NCBI GenBank assembly: GCA_021234155.1
Contig: JAJEKV010000063.1
Span: 776,947-840,946 of the forward strand
DNA: 64,000 nucleotides
Direction of reading: 5' to 3'
From: Isoetes taiwanensis
Lineage: Eukaryota; Streptophyta; Lycopodiopsida; Isoetales; Isoetaceae
A program made the translations under genes and the position numbers. Shown piece by piece: positions 4,441 to 64,000 of the stretch. Each line of letters starts with the position of its first letter. Position 1 is the stretch's first letter. The notes under the pieces were generated by a model, which worked only from the letters and a program-made list of their open reading frames with translations, made no database searches and was not told where the DNA came from.

Positions 4441-6050
4441 GATCTTAGAATGGAGAATTGCCAAGAAATGATCCATTCTATTAGAAATCATGGTGGTTTC
4501 AAAGCCCTAGCAAAACATTTGGGCTATAATGTTCTTGAGATTGACCGTATAAGTATTTCCCAGAGGGTATAGCTTTCCTCACTTTTGTTGGATGTCTTCA
4601 ATTTTCTTATTCATAATGATGATAAGACCATCTTGAAACCAAGCGATAACACTTGTATGTTCGATGTAAATGTAGAATGTTCTTTCCATTACATTTACTA
4701 CCATGAACAGCTTAATAATTGCATTTAGTATTGTCCGTGTCAAAATGTTTGAAGATCCCCTTCAAAGTGTCCCCTAAGCTCTGGCTTCCCATGGACGTTA
4801 AAATTCCCGCCATCATGGATCATCGTCATCATATCGAATTCATGCAGCGTACATGAACAACGTTGTACATCTAAACAATGTGTGAATCAAGGAATATCTC
4901 ATTTCTACTTTGATTTTATTGCAACATGATGTCTCCAAGCTCAAGGTGCAAAAGAGCACGATGTCTTTTGATCTTGTTAAGCAAAGAGAGCATATATAGA
5001 CAATGCGTGTTTCAACATCGCGAATTTTGTTTATACCAATCATTACTCATTCCATGTGCACCTTTGAATCACTACCCAGTTAAAATAGACAATAACTAAA
5101 CCCATTCCACATCTATTCTTCTAAAGCTGGAAATCCGACATTATATTAGCATAATCTTTTAGTGCAACGTGGGCTTTGTCCCATTGTTTTAAAGGGCCGA
5201 CAAACCTATAACAAAAGAGGTATATCGAAATGACGAAACTTCTGATATGCCTCTAAAACTGCAGGTTCACAAGCGATTTATCATCACACTACGCAGTAAG
5301 TTGAATATGCAAAAGATTCACAAAAAATATCACACTAAATAGATAACAAGATAGGGAGTGATGTTGAATAGCATGAAGACTGAATGTTCGGAATAGCATG
5401 AAGACTGAATAGCATGAAGACTGTTGCCATGGCAATTAACATTTCTATATGCATCTTATCAATGTGTGTCTTCCTCATTTGCTCATGGTATACCCTACGA
5501 TCACAACAGCATCCTAAAGACTGCCACAACAAATGCAAAATCAAACCAAAGGAGAGCAACACATATGCAGCCCTGGCATACCCTACAAATGAATAATCCA
5601 AGTTCTAGAAGGCACTAATTTTCAATTAAGTTGCAAATGGTATGGTTATATCTAGAGATTAAAGATTAATCGAACTGAAATTAGGACATAAAAGATAATA
5701 CCTTCAACAACATAGGCAAGCAAGAGTGTGCTAATCTTCCTGTGTTGTTTGTGTGATGGAGTCACGAAACAGTACAAGTTTTGCATTGCCATAGGCGGCA
5801 ACTCGGTTGATAACAGATTCCCCGGCTGCATAAACTATTTTGTTTTCTATTTGTCTTTCTATTGACATTAAGTTTCAGGGCTGGTCTCGATAAAGATGTC
5901 GTTCTATTCGAGAGCATTAACAAACATATTTTTCTTAGAAGCACAGTCTGGCATGCATCAACATAAATGTTTCACATGATAACATAACAAACAGAGAAGC
6001 TTGACTCTAAATGGATAAGGCACTGAAGACATTGTTTTCCATGTCATGCC
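4440..6050. other. Unassigned repeat-unit sequence
   Basis: No gene recognised. A small tandem of the motif ATAGCATGAAGACTGAAT lies near 5,368-5,420. Equivalent to 25,945-27,560 in copy 2. Confidence 0.3.
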
Positions 6051-6059
6051 ATGTAGTCT

Positions 6060-7265
6060 CCAGCCACTGAACAAAAGCGCATCCATCCCCTAGTATAAGC
6101 CGGATTTAGTTGACCAAACCAAAAAACATTTACTTGGTTTAAGCATCCTGTATGGGCTAGGAGATCGACTATGCTGTTACAATGGGAAGTTGATCCAATC
6201 CCTTTGCATGAATTTCATGCTCATGAAGTACCAGTAACCTTCATCTACTTCTGCATGGCTACATAAGTTAAGCAGACTTGTAAAAGACAATTCATTAGGC
6301 ATCATGCACTCTTGCTGCTGCATCATATCGAATCATTCAAAGAGCAAGACAACTATTGCCATGTCGGATCGGGCAAAGCCAAAAGCATTGTGAGCTTCCC
6401 CTAGGCTGTTGCATACATATCGACAACAGTATTCCCTAGAACAGCATCTAACCCAAGTTTGCATTGAATAACCTGTTTGTGAATAAGTCTGCATTCTCTA
6501 TTGCCCTATGCCTGTATATGCTTGTAAAACACTAAAAAGGTGACATCTGGTCTAATGCACTCCAGCAGCATTTGCTTATACAATTAAAGAGTCCCAATGC
6601 CTTCCCACCATGCTGCACAAATCCTGCAATATATATTCCATATGTAACTAAATTTTGATTGAGCAACTTATCAAATAATTTCAAATGCCTGCATACAGAT
6701 CAACTATAGGGCTATCTATAACAGCATCAATATAATATCCACACCAACAACAGATTGATGAATGAGGGTCTTGTCTATTGCTCCTATGGGCCATAGCACA
6801 TGCTTTCAGCATGCTAGAAAAACTACTCATTTGGCTCTACACCTTGCTCTTGCATCGGTTCAAAACATTGGAGGCAAGATGAGAATCTCCATGCTGGATA
6901 TGTCCATCAGTCATAAGTGCACCCCAGGCTACAACATCCGCACCCCAGGCTACCACATCTGTTGCATGTTCTTATAATATTCTATAGCAAGAGGATTAGC
7001 TACTCTGGGCATAGCCCCAATTATTGTACTCTATGATACAACATTTTGTCTTGTAATCTATCAAAGATCCTTCGTTCTTCCAGTAGACATTCACACTTGG
7101 CATACATGTCAATTAAAATGCTTCCTAGCAAGACATCTAGTTTATTACTACTTCTCAAAATATAGCCATGGACGGTTCTTCCCTGTAATGGAGCTCTTAA
7201 GATGGTATAAGCTGCAGTCTCTCATTCAATTGATGTGCCAGTTAAACGCTTTGCCCAGGGTTTCC
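6060..7265 (-). pseudogene. PPR (PLS-type) pseudogene, copy 1
   Basis: Equivalent of 27,570-28,790; see that entry. The same disrupted pentatricopeptide motifs are present, so the decay preceded the duplication. Confidence 0.5.
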
Positions 7266-55639: not shown

Positions 55640-58308
55640 TCATGCGCTGCGTCCATATATCACAAGTTCCATCTGTCCTTCCTCTTGTGTAATATGCAAA
55701 TCTGAAAGACCACGCCAGCTTCTGTACTCAAGGACCAAGCCATTTATGCACATTGCTACACCAAATCCCGAGAATGCAGCCAGGCAGATTGATAATACTG
55801 CCTCCAAGTGCACCTGTTGATAATAAAGAACTGTTATCCAGTTGGAAATGCACGTGATAGATCTGAAAGGTGGGAGGTGGCCATCATATCTTACTATGCC
55901 ATAATATACATGGGTAAAAAGAAGGACAAGTACAAACTGTAGAGCTGAATACGCCCAGATGTATCTTTTGTTCACTGCACCAAAAAGCAGTTTAGTATTA
56001 AGTCTGTACATGTATAGACAAAGCAGAATTGCAAGTTCCAGGATGCTAAGAGACGTATAGTGACTTATCTAATATTCCCAAATGCAGTGGGGAGATATAT
56101 CAAAGGACAATAAAATGTTTCCATAATCAAACAACAAGGATAGCAATATTACCAAGGGTAGATGATATAATTGAAGCAACAAGGCCTAACACGCATGCAA
56201 ATGGCAGAGCAATGGCCAGTGCACCTGAGCCCATATTTTTGACCTGACAAGAAAACCAAATATAGGGCTGCTCAGTTTTTTGCAAACATATGATTTTGCT
56301 AAAACATTTGGTTGATTATGGATGAGGACTGATAGGGTATATACACACCAGAAGCTGCTCCAGGAGACAAAAGTAAGAAAGCATGCTGATCATCATAAGC
56401 ACCGGCACATCCTGCCAGATCCTGATATAGATGGAGACATGCCCAATAAGGTAAGCTCACATATTAACAGTTGTAATTTGACTGTTACTGAAACAGGCCG
56501 TCAAACATGAAAGACCTTTGCCTGGTTGCAGCATTAACAGAAACTGCTCTCACCTAGTGACAGATGCACCTTGCAACCACTTGTTTAAACCAATATATCC
56601 ATGCATTCAGCTTCCAGATTGGTTTTGGAAATGCAGATGGCAGATATAAGGATATCTAGAGGGTGGTGGTGATGAGTGTATCAAGTCAAACAATGATGGA
56701 ACTTGGTTTAGTAACACAATAACAACCTTGAGTACATGGGGAGTTCAAGTACAGTGCATGCAAAATACAAATACTGGCTAATTACTCAAGTAACTAATGA
56801 AGAGTACAATACCCTTGTAGCCCAGATAGATGGAATGCATGTATTGGTGGCGGTGCTTCATTATTGCCACTAGGCACACGTGTGAGTGTGACAGGAAGAT
56901 TCTGAACGTTTTCTCCACAAACATCACATTTTGGGTTGCCCTTTATCCCAAACCATTTTAGAGCACACTCCTCATGTGCAAGTGCCAGCTCACCTTTACA
57001 TTTGCACTGCAACTTCCAGGTCTTTCCTTCTTTAAGGTCATCCATACAGATACGACAGACAGCTGCTTCCTCTGGTATCTCTTCTGTATTTTCATCACCT
57101 AAAATTCAGCAGTTCCCCAGAGGAACAGAAGATAGTATTACACAATGAAATACAATGTGGTTCATAGAAACACAATATGAGAAACAACTATATATGATAA
57201 TATCATCTTTTGTCAGCACTATGAAAGAACTATTTCCCAAATTTGCCATTGTAAAGGTACCTTTATTGTGTGAGGTTGATGAAATGCTCCCATCACTTGA
57301 TTTACTAGCTTCTGGGATGTCAATAGACTGATTTCCAACTGGTCGCACGAGCATGATCATTCCTTTCCCTGATCCTGCTCTAAGACTCTTTGATTTCTTC
57401 GAAGGCGCTGAGAAAGAACGTTCCATCCTTCCTTTCTTATGCAAGCTCTGTAATATGGAATTAATGGTGGTAACCAATAGAATTGCAAACATGAAAAACA
57501 CTGAAGGGCACACCTCAGGCTCTATAATACTTGCAATAGGCACACTTTGACCATCTAGAAATATAATCGGATGATCTGTCACTGGCGTTACAGGAAGTGA
57601 TGAGGTTCTTTGTGATGATAAAGAAGTAAACATCCTTGCAAAAGAGAATGGACTTGCAGCACTTTCAACTGCTTGGTGATTTTGAACTTTCAGAGGACTT
57701 AATGGTCCACTTTTGGCTCTAGACCTGAAACTAGGCCTTGATTGAAACTTGTTTTGTGACCTCTTTGTCTTGGCAGTTGGCGGAGTGGATGGCAACTTGA
57801 ATTTGTTGCCAAAATCTGCAGGATCTAATGCTGCTGGAGGTATCTGTAGCTGTAAATTTGGTCGTCTCTCTGTTCTTGAAGCAGGCAAGGTTTCAGCTAT
57901 TGTAAGTCTTCCTTCTATGTTGTTATCGTTTATCACCTGCAGAATGCAAAATAGAAATCCTAACCAGATTAACAACAGCTATATTTTCAATAGCTGAAGT
58001 ACGATGACTATCAGAATACGATAGAGAATGTAGAACACAAAACTGCTTCTATCTCTAATGAGATGTGGAAAGCTTGATTTCAGATGTGAGAATGTCTATA
58101 AGCAGGAAATTGCCTTGTCAAAAATGTTAAAGAGCAAAGTAGCATCTAATAGCATGATTGCACTAATTTGCTCATGTACAACCTCACGCTAATAAGATGA
58201 ATTTTTGAAATTAGATGGCAGCAAGCTGGAAAAGCAAAATACCTTAGGAGGATCATCAAAAGAGCTGGATGGTGATGCAGCATCGTCCCTGCTTACAGTA
58301 GGCGCCAT
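55640..58308 (-). CDS. RING-CH (RINGv) E3 ubiquitin ligase with four membrane spans, 8 exons
   Basis: Exons, minus strand: 58,308-58,243; 57,936-57,514; 57,447-57,261; 57,098-56,813; 56,421-56,349; 56,243-56,153; 55,974-55,895; 55,813-55,640. All borders are GT-AG, phases agree, and the sum is 1,380 nt (459 aa plus stop). An N-terminal Ser/Pro-rich region contains RTSSLPVTP, a mark of this plant family. The RING-CH finger is complete: C240, C243, C257, C259, H267, C270, C283, C286 (C4HC3). Four hydrophobic spans follow (about 326-345, 352-372, 381-400, 406-427). Such proteins are membrane-anchored E3 ligases that pass ubiquitin from an E2; the substrate is unknown. The start was chosen for GCTATGGCG context and because exon 1 joins exon 2 in phase. 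Intron 2 is only 66 nt and open in frame (see findings). Confidence 0.85.
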
Positions 58309-59288
58309 AGCAGTTTTTTTAATTCTACAGCTGTCTAAGTCCGACGGTTCTCATTTCAAGCCATTGTTGACATTCATGCCGAAAAGATATAAATCCGGAG
58401 CGCAATGATCTTTGCATAGTCTTACAGTCTCTCTCGATTGCATTAACCTATTATTTTCCAAGAACCCATTTCCATATCGATTTAGCTCCAATCAAGATTA
58501 GGCGCTCGCTTCCCTGATGGGCCAATGTAAGAATCAAATCCAGAAAAAATCATGAAAAATCATTCCAAGCATTTGCTTTTAGCCTAATATGAACCTGCGG
58601 CTTCTTGAAAGATCAAAGATGCCAATCAAAAGAATTCCACCGTATAAAGATTTATTCCCACTTTATGGAAAAGAATGCCCCGGTGCGCGGGCCCGGAACA
58701 ATGCAAGCAGAAATGAGATTGTAAAAAGTACTCACAGCTCCGGAATGCTATGAGAATCCGATTCCGGCAGAGTTCGAGCTCAAAACGAAAGAACTGACTG
58801 GAGCCATGAGCTGCAAAGACAAGATATGTCGGGTTTGGCAAAGGCATGCACAGGCTTCGAAAATTGGAACAACTTCTTCTGCTCGATCAACCGTCCATGC
58901 ACTGCAGTCTACGGTATCACTCATGCATTTCTTTTGCATTTCCATTCCTTCTATTTTCGTTCCTCAGTTCTTGTTGAAGGTTCGCATGAGGAATAGTACC
59001 TCTTATTGCACCTTTTAGCTTGGAAACATAGCCCAAGCAACTTCATGAAAATTTTGCCTGCTGCTTTATATAACTTGAGAATTCTATTCTATTCTCTAGT
59101 TTTCCTCCTGCTCCTCACCATTTCTATGGGAAATTTTCATACTTTTCTAAATCTTCTTTAACCGTAACCAACGTGACCTTAAAATTACTTGAGATTATGG
59201 CTTAGGTAGTTTTCAGGTAACTTTTAGGTGATTTATCATTCAAAATTTGTGGCGGCGCTCTGCGGGCGCCACCATCTCCCATTATACA
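58309..59288 (-). other. 5' flank of the RING-CH gene
   Basis: Expected to hold the leader and promoter of the minus-strand gene. No clear TATA box was fixed. Short open frames on both strands near 58,626-59,018 have no recognisable motif. Confidence 0.3.
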
Positions 59289-59393
59289 CCATGATACAGA
59301 AAATATACAGAAATTATCATGGTTCATGATACAGAAGTTCATTACCGAACATGATACAGAAGTTCATTATAGAACATGAACATGATAGTTCAC
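59289..59393. repeat. 25-bp short tandem repeat
   Basis: CATGATACAGAAGTTCATTA occurs at 59,325 and 59,350, with diverged copies on each side. Confidence 0.8.
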
Positions 59394-59753
59394 TGTTTCA
59401 AATAAGAAAACGACAGCTCCATTTCCAAAATGGATCTCTTCCAAAATGGATCAACCAATACATCAGACAGAGTTCAAAAGCAAATTTAAAATTGAAGCAA
59501 ATATAGAACCGACACTGTTTCAAATTTCAAAACAAAAGTTACATTTCTAAAATGGATTACTTCCATCATATAAAAACCAAAATTCCATGTGATATGAAAG
59601 TTATCAGATCAGATCAGTTCACATCCGCAACTAAAGTTCAGATTCTTTATATCAGAAATCAAGGCACCTTTGGTATAGCAGCGAACACGTTCTCCACTAT
59701 TACATATTGAAAAGAAAGTAACTAAATAGTTAAACTAAAACACAGAAACATAC

Positions 59754-61037
59754 CTCAGTTGCAACTTTTCCTTTCTTGTCACCAAGAGTCGCCAACCCAA
59801 CTTTCTCACCACTAGAACTTCCTCCAGCATTAAATGCTGTCATCATTGCACTCTTCTTAGTTTTTTGCTACTGAAGAACATCACTGTAAACCTTCAAAGA
59901 ACCATCATCGTTATAGGGACATTCTAGAATATTCATGCAGCATCAACCTGCATTTCTTTAGTTCTGTCATATCTAGAATACACAAAAACCAGTTAACAAG
60001 AGTACACAAAAGCAAACAGGTAGTCAAATAAAACAAACTCGCTTACTTTTTATATGAATTGACATTTCGATGACCAGTTATCAACATCCCAATTTCAGGT
60101 GGAGATCCAACCATTGATAACCTCGAAACCAGTGTCACAAACGACTCTTGTTTGTTATTTCTATATCACTCACCAAACTGCCCATACACTGCAACCAAGT
60201 GCGAATTTTGTTGACACCCATTGGTACCTTCTAGTACCATGCCTGCAATAAAACAAATATTGAAGACTGTTGTTAAAAAAAAAAAATAGAAATACAATAA
60301 AGTTAGAAAACTTACGTTATATCTTGGATTACAAATTGTTTGCAGGAAAAAAGCCCGTGGTTGATCATTATCCTTCTCTGGCAAATGCCTAACATATTGC
60401 TTGAATGTCTCGACAAAGTCTGTTTCATAACTCCAAATCGGCGGGCGGAGATGAGAATCATCAAACCTATTCATGCTGATGTGCCAATTCTTTGAAACCC
60501 GCTTCCTGTACATAACATCATCTCCATACTCATCGCTACACAGATTCACATCACAATTAAGAACTCCATGGAGCTCTGCGTGCCCTCGAATCCCAAACCT
60601 GGAAACCATGTAATAGGCTAGCCGTTTCTGACAACCTGAAATAAAACATAAGTTATTAGAAACCTATTCTTACGTACACAAAAGAAACAATTCAAACTAT
60701 AAAATTATTTATGAGTAAATTTAAAATTACCTGTATTATGTGTGTTTTGATGATCGCGTTCTGCTAATAATTCACATTCCAGTTTGAAACTTATTTCAGC
60801 TGTCTTCTTTTTTGTCGCTGCATCAACTCCAGCACGTCGCAACCGTTCTGCAGCACCAATAAAAACCTTGCAGGCTCTAGCAAATAATGGATGATGCAAG
60901 ATGTTAAATCGCGGCCGATCAATTCCAGTTTGTTCAATTATCATATCCTGCTTTTTCCTGATTATACGACCAATGGCTCTGAAAAGGTTATTCAAACTGC
61001 ACAAACAATAGAAAACAATTAGAATTAAAAAAAAAAC

Positions 61038-61068
<31 letters not shown>

Positions 61069-61251
61069 AGTACCTGCTAGTAGGAAATATCTTGCCATTA
61101 TTTCTTTTGACTTGAATCATAAACATCACAAGCATTTCGCCCAGCTCGGGGAATGGAATGTCTTCAATAGGAACGAAAGCATCCATCTTCCTGAACTCTC
61201 TCCAGGCATTAAATTTCTTTATAGCCCAATTGGTTACCTTTGAAGAACCAT
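59754..61251 (-). pseudogene. DUF3504/Crypton-type tyrosine recombinase, multi-exon, broken
   Basis: Exons, minus strand: 61,251-61,074; 60,996-60,731; 60,635-60,316; 60,242-60,047; 59,972-59,754, with GT-AG introns of 73-95 nt. The first three join in phase. Visible in order: VTNWAIKKFNAWREF and IPFPELGEMLVMFMIQVK (N-terminal helical part), FNILHHPLFARACKVF, FGIRGHAEL (first catalytic Arg), MYRKRVSKNW (Lys), WY..KVPMGVNKIR, then TGHRNVNSYKKYD (His and nucleophile Tyr). This is the layout of DUF3504 proteins, derived from Crypton-type tyrosine recombinases that cut and join DNA. It is broken: a TAG follows WY in exon 4, a frameshift removes the region of the second Arg (exon 4 length is off by one), and exon 5 has further stops. 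Possible 5' exons up to 61,560 could not be joined in phase. A worn domesticated gene is the alternative to a transposon relic. Confidence 0.6.
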
Positions 61252-62092
61252 CTGTTCAGGGAAAAAGACATATTCTCCATTTCTTTACCTCTAGAAACCA
61301 CCACATTAAACAGACAAATATTAGAAAACCTAACCAGGAAAAGAAGCCACAAAAGACCTGCTATTGCAACCTGCAGACAAGAAAAAAATGTTAGCATCAA
61401 ACTCGTCAAACATATTAGCAACAACCTTAAAAACTAGAACTTAAAACTAACCTTAAAATCTTGAGCAATCGCAGAACTTGATCTTTTATGAAAATAACTC
61501 TCCACTTGCTGCATGCATGCAACTGGAAATACCTTAAGAAATATCTCACACTGAACCAGCATGCTTACACCTTACATTTACTGTGTTAACCTTCTTAACA
61601 CTGATCTCCACTAACATCAACAAACAAATGTCGCGACGCACTCAAGATTATCAAACAACAACCGACAGCCACTAAATCTCGACTCACAGCCACTAAATCT
61701 CGACACAAAGCCACTAAATGCCGACTAACAGCACCCAAGAACTCGATTATCTCGAGCAAAAGACCTCAAACACAAGATATCTCGACCAAACACCTGTAAA
61801 CACAACAAAAAAAACCCTGTAAGAAAGAAATAAAAGAAAAATCAGAAAAACTTGACAAAAACTCAACAAACATGAACAAACAAGACGTCTTCTTGAAGCT
61901 CGCCTTCTAGCGCCTACGAAAACAATGCTCAATCCAAAAATGAAGCTCCCAATCGAGCTGGCGCCGCAAAAAACTAGCTCGGGGGAGCTCTGCCGGAATG
62001 GAACTCGTCAGCAAAAAAAGGCCAGTGCAATCATCTCGAATTATCATTTATACCCCTGCTGACATGGCAGGGTTGGCCACGTCAGAACAATA
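61252..62092 (-). other. Upstream part and flank of the recombinase gene
   Basis: May hold further 5' exons: a minus-strand frame with QQVESYFHKRSSSAIAQDFK near 61,460-61,515 ends at a GT, but no joining in phase to 61,251 was found. The rest shows no gene. ACAGCCACTAAATCTCGACT-type words repeat near 61,665-61,725. Confidence 0.3.
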
Positions 62093-62166
62093 CACGCCAC
62101 CTGGCGGTTTCCAGCTGGAAATCCGCATGCGGCGCCGCTGCTCATGGCTGCCCGCCAGGTGGCGTG
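62093..62166. repeat. GC-rich inverted repeat (15-bp perfect arms)
   Basis: CACGCCACCTGGCGG (62,093-62,107) and its exact reverse complement (62,152-62,166) enclose 44 bases that include GCATGCGGCGCCGC. It is far more GC-rich than its surroundings. Confidence 0.8.
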
Positions 62167-62169
62167 CAT

Positions 62170-63220
62170 TACCCCCTACTTAAAACTTTGCTTGTAAAGG
62201 TTTACTCAAACGTTTGAAGCAATGATCCCATATGTGTTTCTATGACAAGAGAACAACAATCAATATAGAGAGGATACACTATCTTCCAAATATACATTAT
62301 TAATCAATTCAAACAAGATCCAATATACATGATTTGTTCAAACAAATCACAACTAACAAAATAAAAATAGGCCGACCTTTTCCTTGACGTGCATTTTCGT
62401 GGTACCACATGGCACCATGCTATACTGCGGAATGGAAGCCGCCTCGACCCATTCTGCGTGACTGGCAATGCAAAATTTTTTTTTTTTTTGAGGGTTTTGT
62501 TTTGAGGTTAGGGTCCTTCGAGCTCCACACAACTGCCAATACTTCGAGCTCTTTGCCTGTATATCAGCTCAAACTCTAGAAGGTCGCAGGGTAGCGGATT
62601 GCAGGTAGCAGATTGCTCCGAGTTTCTTTGCCAGATTTGTTCAAAAGATGACGAGTTTTTGCAAGAACTGGTAGAACCTTGTCAGTCTGGTAAAAATGCT
62701 CCCCTAATCTGGTAAGAATCCTGTAAATTTGTTAGATCTATAAAAATGCCTCCTCTATTTTGACTTTCTAGGGAATGGAAGCTGGGACTCCAATCTCGAT
62801 TTGCAGGTGTAGTCCCGCGACGGAATTTCAGAAATGGATGACCAAACTCTATTCCTTATACATCAAGTTGTGATTCAATTTCTCATGATTAATTAAGAAA
62901 AATAGCATGCATGATTGTCAAAAAAGAAGAGGAGCAATAACAACAAATGTATGGCACACCAGTATGAATAGTTTGGGGCAAATTTATTACAATAGATCTA
63001 TATGCTTCATTTAACTTGTTGGCAAAAAGATAAGTGGCCCGATGGAAGCCACAAAGTTAGGATTGACACGAGCACTGCTATAATTGCCTTTGTGTTCCAT
63101 GCTAAGCCCATCTTTGCCTAGGAAGCTGGGAACCATGATCGACTTTCAATCACCTTCTACCGAGGATGACGACATTGATTCCATCAACTAATTGTCGTTG
63201 CTTTCACCATAGAAATTGTG
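62170..63220. other. No gene recognised
   Basis: AT-rich non-coding sequence with a T run near 62,478-62,490. Confidence 0.3.
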
Positions 63221-64000
63221 ACTAAGTAGCCTGCGGTCGAATCCTTCTCACTAGATGATGAGTTTTGTAACTTAGCAGTTCCAAATGCTTTGGCAGCTTG
63301 TTCTTTTGGAGCAGCTCATCACTTCCAATTCTGCATTGGAAACTGAAGCCGATCTCTTCACCTTGGAAAATGAATCCCATCGATCCGAGTCCTCGGATCG
63401 AAATTCTAGAGGGGGCGAGCATGCATGTCTTGCATGCATGCATGCAGTGCATGCCTTCTCTGGTTGGGAGATCGCTATATTAGGCGAGGTTCTTCATCAG
63501 CAGTACCTTATTCTCTATTCTTTGAAACCATGCAGAGGAGGGGCTTCTCCCTGCTTGGATTGATCAATTTAGCGTTTCTTTCATGTTGTGGCATGTCCTT
63601 TCTCGGCCTTGCCTCTTTTTTAGCCATAATCTTTTGACCTTCGTCCTCGATCCCATTTTGATAAGGAAGTTCTCTTCTGTTCGGGAGGTTTTTGTCATTT
63701 TCATGCGAGCCCCATTCTAGAATCCCATCGATCCGAGCCCTCAGATCGAAATTCTAGAGGGGGCGAGCATGCATGTCTTGCATGTATGCATGCAGTGCAT
63801 GCCTTCTCTGGTTGGGAGATCGCTATATTAGGCGAGGTTTTTCATCAACGTCTCATTGGCGCTTCCTCTTCTCTCTCAGCAGTATCTTATTCTCTATTCT
63901 TTGAAACCCACCCTCCTCCCTTAATTGTTTAATGTATTTGTCGCCTGGCACGCGTGATGAGCCCCTCTATTTGAAGAGGTTTTTGTTTTGTTATCGCATG
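63220..64000 (+). repeat. GCATGC/palindrome repeat family, plus orientation
   Basis: Two ~348-bp units. Each has a palindrome (63,380-63,401, perfect with 10-bp arms; 63,728-63,749, one mismatch), then AAATTCTAGAGGGGGCGAGC, a GCATGC-rich run and GGGAGATCGCTATATTAGG. A CTTATTCTCTATTCTTTGAA tail follows. Reverse complement of the 44,280-45,340 family. It continues past the window end. Open frames here are on repeat DNA. Confidence 0.75.

Follow-up and report, generated by a model that had tools for sequence, protein, structure and literature searches.

The locus in the window, that is, the whole 64,000-nt stretch of DNA analysed here, is a broken, dead copy of a Crypton-like tyrosine recombinase (YR) transposon that is abundant in the genome of Isoetes taiwanensis. 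Very probably, the copy derives from a DNA transposon mobilised by its own tyrosine recombinase. The element is situated on the minus strand, with the termini TAGGGGG... on the left and ...GGTTACG on the right, and the same ends are fixed by the empty site of the sister copy L015 (loci numbered from L001 upward are relatives in the searched genome of 1,658,258,908 bp and 1,110 contigs). A second copy of these elements was not found within the 64,000 nt. The interval given by an earlier, sequence-only reading of this DNA covers the coding part, whereas the element itself extends from 59163 to 62178. Its outline is as follows:

59163..62178, minus strand: entire 3,016-bp element, running from its left end at 62178 to its right end at 59163; homology with copies L015–L018 ends at or before both
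62179..62182, minus strand: target-derived left flank TAAG, which fits T-W-N-G
62075..62178, minus strand: left-terminal palindrome, the hairpin-forming segment P, with self-complementarity above 100 shuffles (first 128 nt tested)
62060..62081, minus strand: decayed left inverted repeat (CGTGGCCAAC...), within the palindrome, placed by eye at the left inverted repeat of L015
59163..59169, minus strand: right terminus GGTTACG; a TTACG terminus occurs in 23/30 copies examined

Within the element, a broken five-exon YR gene of the DUF3504 type occupies 61255–59754 of the minus strand:

61074..61255, minus strand: remainder of exon 1 (TDGSSKVTNWAIKKF...IFPTS), with ~223 bp upstream deleted
60997..61073, minus strand: intron 1, GT-AG, 77 nt; same position in L016 and L018–L026, with a GC donor in L018
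60731..60996, minus strand: exon 2 (SLNNLFRAIGRIIRKK...)
60636..60730, minus strand: intron 2, GT-AG, 95 nt; absent from L020, L022, L024 and L025
60316..60635, minus strand: exon 3, with the catalytic Arg (FGIRG) and the beta-hairpin Lys (VSKNW)
60243..60315, minus strand: intron 3, GT-AG, 73 nt; position common to relatives
60047..60242, minus strand: exon 4, with the KxxR box (frame broken here) and TGH
59973..60046, minus strand: intron 4, GT-AG, 74 nt; position common to other subfamilies
59754..59972, minus strand: exon 5, with the catalytic Tyr (YDRTKE), then stops

The motifs FGIRGHAEL, YRKRVSKNW and TGHRNVNSYKK/YDRTKE, singled out by the sequence-only reading, are located on the minus strand in the order that it gave, and its five exons with short introns correspond to four GT-AG introns of 77, 95, 73 and 74 nt. 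The positions of introns 1, 3 and 4 are conserved across several subfamilies. The lesions that it described are also present, as exon 4 loses its frame at the KxxR box and exon 5 contains stops; a deletion in exon 1 comes in addition, where ~223 bp are missing compared with L004, the same region being aligned to L015. Single exons of the window copy give no match to PF12012. After splicing, with X at the sites of damage, the translation matches PF12012 (DUF3504) better than any other Pfam family (E 7.7e-4, 20 bits; curated cut-off 29.7), and the claim of an intron-containing DUF3504-type YR in a plant is supported, though by a match below the cut-off. PF12012 is the best match in all five spliced proteins. 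The scores of the spliced relatives are 25.2 bits for L020, 16.7 for L024 and 18.1 for L025. All four main-family proteins therefore lie under the cut-off, at 16.7–25.2 bits, which counts against mobilisation by the elements' own YR. In the second lineage, the one protein tested (L002) passes the cut-off at 31.7 bits and also matches Phage_integrase at 7.9e-5, under the cut-off of that family.

Searched against PDB, the family profile matches no YR, a further point against such mobilisation, and its sole match up to E 10 is a phage tail protein at E 0.11; an NCBIfam search with L025 gives no match. For L020, 8 of the 13 ORFs with a length of 75 aa or more were scanned, along with one ORF from the window; these nine give no RT, DDE or RepHel match, and their sole match up to E 0.1 is ACTH_domain at 0.032, below its cut-off; two of the remaining five ORFs of L020 are YR exons. 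The C-terminal part of the protein in L025 and L020 contains a conserved GGxSFxGGTxNN stretch, without a convincing Pfam match.

The relatives are dispersed over many large contigs. Exon 3 as query yields at least 150 relatives (150 scored of 1,211 rough candidates), all with E <= 1.8e-28 and 49–100% identical, and exon 4 of L025 yields at least 150 matches (150 scored of 943 candidates), the candidate counts being rough and not true copy numbers. By our own count, 117/150 scored exon 3 matches have no internal stop, and 138/150 of the exon 4 matches are likewise without a stop. Paralogues in the same genome, to which the sequence-only reading had pointed as a check, are thus available in stop-free form. 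A second DUF3504 lineage, represented by L001 and L002 (G000:C31, C606), gives 62 matches from 81 candidates; in L002 the KxxR box reads NKTLR, and introns apparently occur there too. Pattern-based scans of viral and prokaryote contigs confirmed no relative. An rbcL-like frame in the searched genome matches Rubisco large chains, with those of tobacco and spinach among the best entries.

Across the 24 loci longer than 3 kb, the catalytic positions are largely retained: R at Arg-I in 21, K at the Lys in 22, R at Arg-II in 20, H at His-III in 18 and Y at the Tyr in 17, the remaining positions being mutated or outside coverage. This count leaves out L003–L006 and L009, which are duplicates of the window copy (W) and of L015–L018, as well as L027. 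Of the 21 loci with coverage at the His-II position, 18 have K and two have R; the last is the window copy, frameshifted and unreadable. Most relatives keep R-K-[K]xxR-H-Y, with Lys replacing His. The YR is under purifying selection in the resolvable pairs. The best-resolved pair, L020/L022, has a dN/dS of 0.077 at dS 0.86 over 450 codons, and L020 and L022 against L025 give 0.21 and 0.24 at dS near 2. Over 174–182 codons of exons 2–3, the values are 0.10 for L019/L020, 0 for L023/L024 and 0.20 for L025/L026. The near-identical pair L021/L022 (0.53 at dS 0.009) is uninformative, and pairs with L024 are saturated.

The elements are 3.0–3.9 kb in size, with no cargo seen, and share their ends. 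The right end is exactly TTACG in 9/13 copies with 8–9 kb of sequence, despite divergent left parts and proteins; in the four others, L018 and L021 are cut short, L017 is rearranged and L016 has diverged. Further right ends carry TTACG in 14/17 cases (17 of the 40 best listed, from 99 candidates), and the shared ends, for which the sequence-only reading had proposed a test, appear as a TTACG terminus in 23/30 right ends. They are common to subfamilies whose proteins are 51–56% identical to the reference row. In L017, at ~5908–6862 (oriented by gene), the right half of the element is duplicated inverted beside itself.

The left terminus is of four kinds: TAGGGGG(T)AA, GAAGGGGAAA, TAACGTGCCA (L023/L024) and TGCTAGRTAA (el2). 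In the eight elements examined, the left side contains a 27–29-bp inverted repeat of the right end, located inside the outer segment P of 34–137 bp. The inverted repeats exceed 300 shuffles in 7/8 elements, the exception being the window copy, and the self-complementarity of P lies above 100 shuffles in 7/8, the exception being L022. Single-strand DNA folding of P, computed for four elements, gives z values of -14.2 (L023), -12.4 (L020), -6.4 (el2) and -3.8 (window). The element el2, at 5924–6892 of L019 (oriented by gene), is 969 bp long and non-coding, with a perfect 27-bp inverted repeat and a 137-bp end palindrome, and its left part has 37 matches genome-wide. It is a non-autonomous family that shares the end architecture of the YR elements.

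Empty sites are found directly for 2/7 joined-flank queries (40/423 candidates scored). For L020, the joined flanks have junction-spanning matches at six other places (85–90%), and for L015 at one (96%); for the window copy, L022, L023 and L024, no empty site occurs among the 40 scored of 423 candidates. The aligned empty sites read ...CCCAATTTG^GTGAGC... and ...CATAAGG^AAAG...; the element separates the two halves, and both insertions involve no loss and no duplication beyond one ambiguous G.

The flanks of 29 left and 28 right ends, from four left-end types with el2 included, give the target motif T-W-N-G^N8-A-A, which, together with the empty sites of L020 and L015, supplies the target-site footprint for which the sequence-only reading had proposed a test. 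On the left, G at -1 occurs in 27/29 (p 3e-17), A/T at -3 in 29/29 (3e-7) and T at -4 in 21/29 (2e-5), the full T-W-N-G fitting 20/29 flanks; on the right, A at +9 occurs in 20/28 (p 6e-6) and A at +10 in 16/28 (p 2e-3). These p values are relative to the flanks' own composition and are uncorrected for the choice of positions, which were picked after inspecting the flanks. The left set drops L059 and L060 (of 11 fetched) and L072, L075 and L076 (of 13), whose left end is unrecognisable. Removed from the right set are L016, L017, L018, L021, L039 and L043, all lacking the TTACG terminus, along with seven el2 copies whose right end was not recognised and the four tandem cases (L019, L038, L042 and L067). 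In three of the four left-end types, the joined ends repeat the layout of the target, as TACG + TAGGGGGTAA, GAAGGGGAAA or TGCTAGATAA; the L023/L024 type (TAACGTGCCA) has no A at +9.

L019 is inserted in another repeat (three relatives fetched), whose shortened right half resumes only after el2, and el2 immediately adjoins the TTACG terminus of the L019 element. L048, L049 and L067 have comparable neighbours, making 4/26 right ends in all. The tandem junction GGTTACGTAGGGGG is found 7 times genome-wide versus 13 for the reversed control, so the case for tandem insertion is made by the single loci L019, L048, L049 and L067. The insertion target of L019, a short repeat bounded by the inverted sequences GGCTACGTTCCCATG...CATGGGAACGTAGCC, is also observed in L035–L037.

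In the mechanism that we infer, the YR would cut the element out in circular form (neither excision products nor activity were observed), and the joined ends of this circle, TACG followed by the left end, would recombine with a chromosomal T-W-N-G-N8-A-A. After insertion, the TWNG of the target would remain on the left and the TACG of the element on the right. A site common to target and donor, with the target version on the left and TACG on the right, is expected from such a conservative recombination between circle and chromosome, which the layout of the ends suggests. The 27–29-bp inverted repeats are the probable binding sites of the YR, and the left palindrome would lie between them in the circle. 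Points against mobilisation by the elements' own YR are the direct empty sites for just 2/7 queries, the missing A at +9 in the left ends of L023/L024 and the tandem-junction count below that of its control.

Tyrosine recombinases acting on palindromic or hairpin DNA are known from integron attC sites and protelomerases, and KxxR is present in the protelomerase TelK; the likeness of the Isoetes elements to these systems lies in the type of enzyme, its KxxR and the palindromic DNA. By this analogy, the left palindrome might itself be a working recombination site, at which a hairpin or cruciform would unite the inverted repeats and be cut by the KxxR YR, a reading to which we give only an outside chance. 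If true, it would represent a structure-dependent YR site, to our knowledge the first in eukaryotic transposons, and would help to explain the high copy number via single-stranded DNA recombination during replication.

Among the rival explanations, the elements might be Helitron2-like rolling-circle elements with a captured YR, with RepHel supplied in trans and acting on the hairpin and the asymmetric repeats. Helitrons insert without target duplication, and Helitron Rep domains are abundant in this genome (at least 150; 150 scored of 1,813 candidates). The end hairpin and the short asymmetric inverted repeats resemble the Helitron2 type in excerpts of PMC8969392 and count against mobilisation by the elements' own YR; duplication-free insertion is a further likeness to Helitrons. 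However, the Isoetes elements carry a YR gene and use another target site, and no RepHel is found in the scanned ORFs. Divergent subfamilies retain the YR gene under purifying selection, and the target TWNG^N8AA has its counterpart in the joined ends of most left-end types. Nine end sequences were looked for in four 10-kb RepHel loci, a small sample (4/150 matches, one related group), and all were absent there. We regard the rolling-circle explanation as improbable.

The sequence-only reading had also considered a domesticated gene, and a DUF3504 host gene like ZMYM2, QRICH1 or KIAA1958 would agree with the introns, the purifying selection between subfamilies and the DUF3504-type protein. Against this, exons 1, 4 and 5 of the window copy carry lesions, and the gene lies within a many-copy repeat with defined ends, whose sister copies have empty sites. 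Furthermore, the catalytic residues are kept in most relatives, whereas they are mostly lost in DUF3504 genes according to the part of PMC3212892 that deals with them. Because the locus is decayed and belongs to a mobile, high-copy family for which empty sites exist at other places, and is neither intact, low-copy nor immobile, domestication is very improbable and this claim is not supported.

Inverted or split repeats occur in DIRS-type elements, and a YR is common to them, so a DIRS/Ngaro-type retroelement that lost its RT in these copies may be considered. However, neither RT nor RNase H is present in the scanned L020 ORFs or in the spliced 639-aa product of L025, and the intron positions shared by the subfamilies speak against passage through RNA; this origin is scarcely credible. 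The probability of contaminant DNA in the assembly is negligible: DUF3504 YRs are best known from fungal, oomycete and animal groups, but the copies are spread over many large contigs, the window copy lies ~2 kb from a RINGv exon on an 8.56 Mb contig, and L015, L019 and L020 are embedded in sequences that recur at other places of the same genome.

As a DNA transposon with its own YR, the element is comparable to the Cryptons, and the Crypton label of the sequence-only reading holds in part. The elements code for a YR and, in the scanned ORFs, for no RT or DDE transposase. Like the Cryptons in excerpts of PMC3212892, they are compact DNA transposons whose recognisable gene is a DUF3504-type YR, with a short terminal repeat of the kind proposed there as the recombination core. 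Cryptons are described in the same excerpts as being without TIRs, whereas the Isoetes elements have 27–29-bp inverted repeats and a left palindrome. In place of the R-H-R-Y tetrad, the Isoetes elements carry Lys for His, and in place of identical 4–6 bp terminal direct repeats, the left TWNG varies while the right TACG is nearly fixed. They are also very numerous, whereas Cryptons are mostly low-copy. A lycophyte host does not appear in Table 1 of Kojima and Jurka 2011 (PMC3212892; CryptonA/F/I/S), and an excerpt of that paper mentions a DUF3504 gene in a green-alga mitochondrion. The inverted repeats, the degenerate terminal repeat and the KxxR depart from Cryptons, and the elements are therefore called Crypton-like rather than strict Cryptons.

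The captain family of the Starships is DUF3435. The fungal Starships of the Hephaestus family are likewise YR-driven, and their targets TTAC(N7)A and TTACA(N5)AAT, as given in excerpts of PMC12153272, resemble the TTACG^N8AA of Isoetes. In the same excerpts, high-confidence Starships have terminal inverted repeats in 18/20 and short direct repeats in 19/20 cases, and measure ~20–700 kb with cargo, in contrast to the 3.0–3.9 kb and the DUF3504-type YR of the Isoetes elements. This size, along with the exclusively DUF3504-type matches, does not fit a Starship. For Phaeovirus integrations, an excerpt of PMC13236599 proposes a requirement for only two bases of homology, an indication that very short homology may be enough.

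YR DNA transposons generally pass for rare elements of low copy number, with the best documentation coming from fungi, animals and stramenopiles. In the titles and opening parts of abstracts on Crypton or DUF3504 in Isoetes, Selaginella and land plants, no lycophyte element is named. The Crypton label is already in use for plants, which speaks against full novelty: in its survey excerpt, PMC4438587 counts Crypton among the superfamilies present in all groups studied, and one column of a table in the plant TE atlas PMC8729191 contains 535 entries labelled Crypton. With its high copy number, empty sites, legible attachment site, stop-free copies and non-autonomous members, the lycophyte family is a plant model in which the movement and multiplication of eukaryotic YR transposons can be tested. 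A specific mechanistic question, amenable to work in vitro, arises from the left palindrome and from the Lys that replaces His in the active site, and repeat libraries may miss such elements in other seed-free plants.

Two further features were observed around the element. The exon with a RINGv (RING-CH) domain, ~2 kb away, is located at 56794–57105 of the window on the minus strand (E 2.1e-13). In addition, two near-identical direct copies with GCATGCATGC runs, recognised by eye, are situated at 63366–63500 and 63720–63853.
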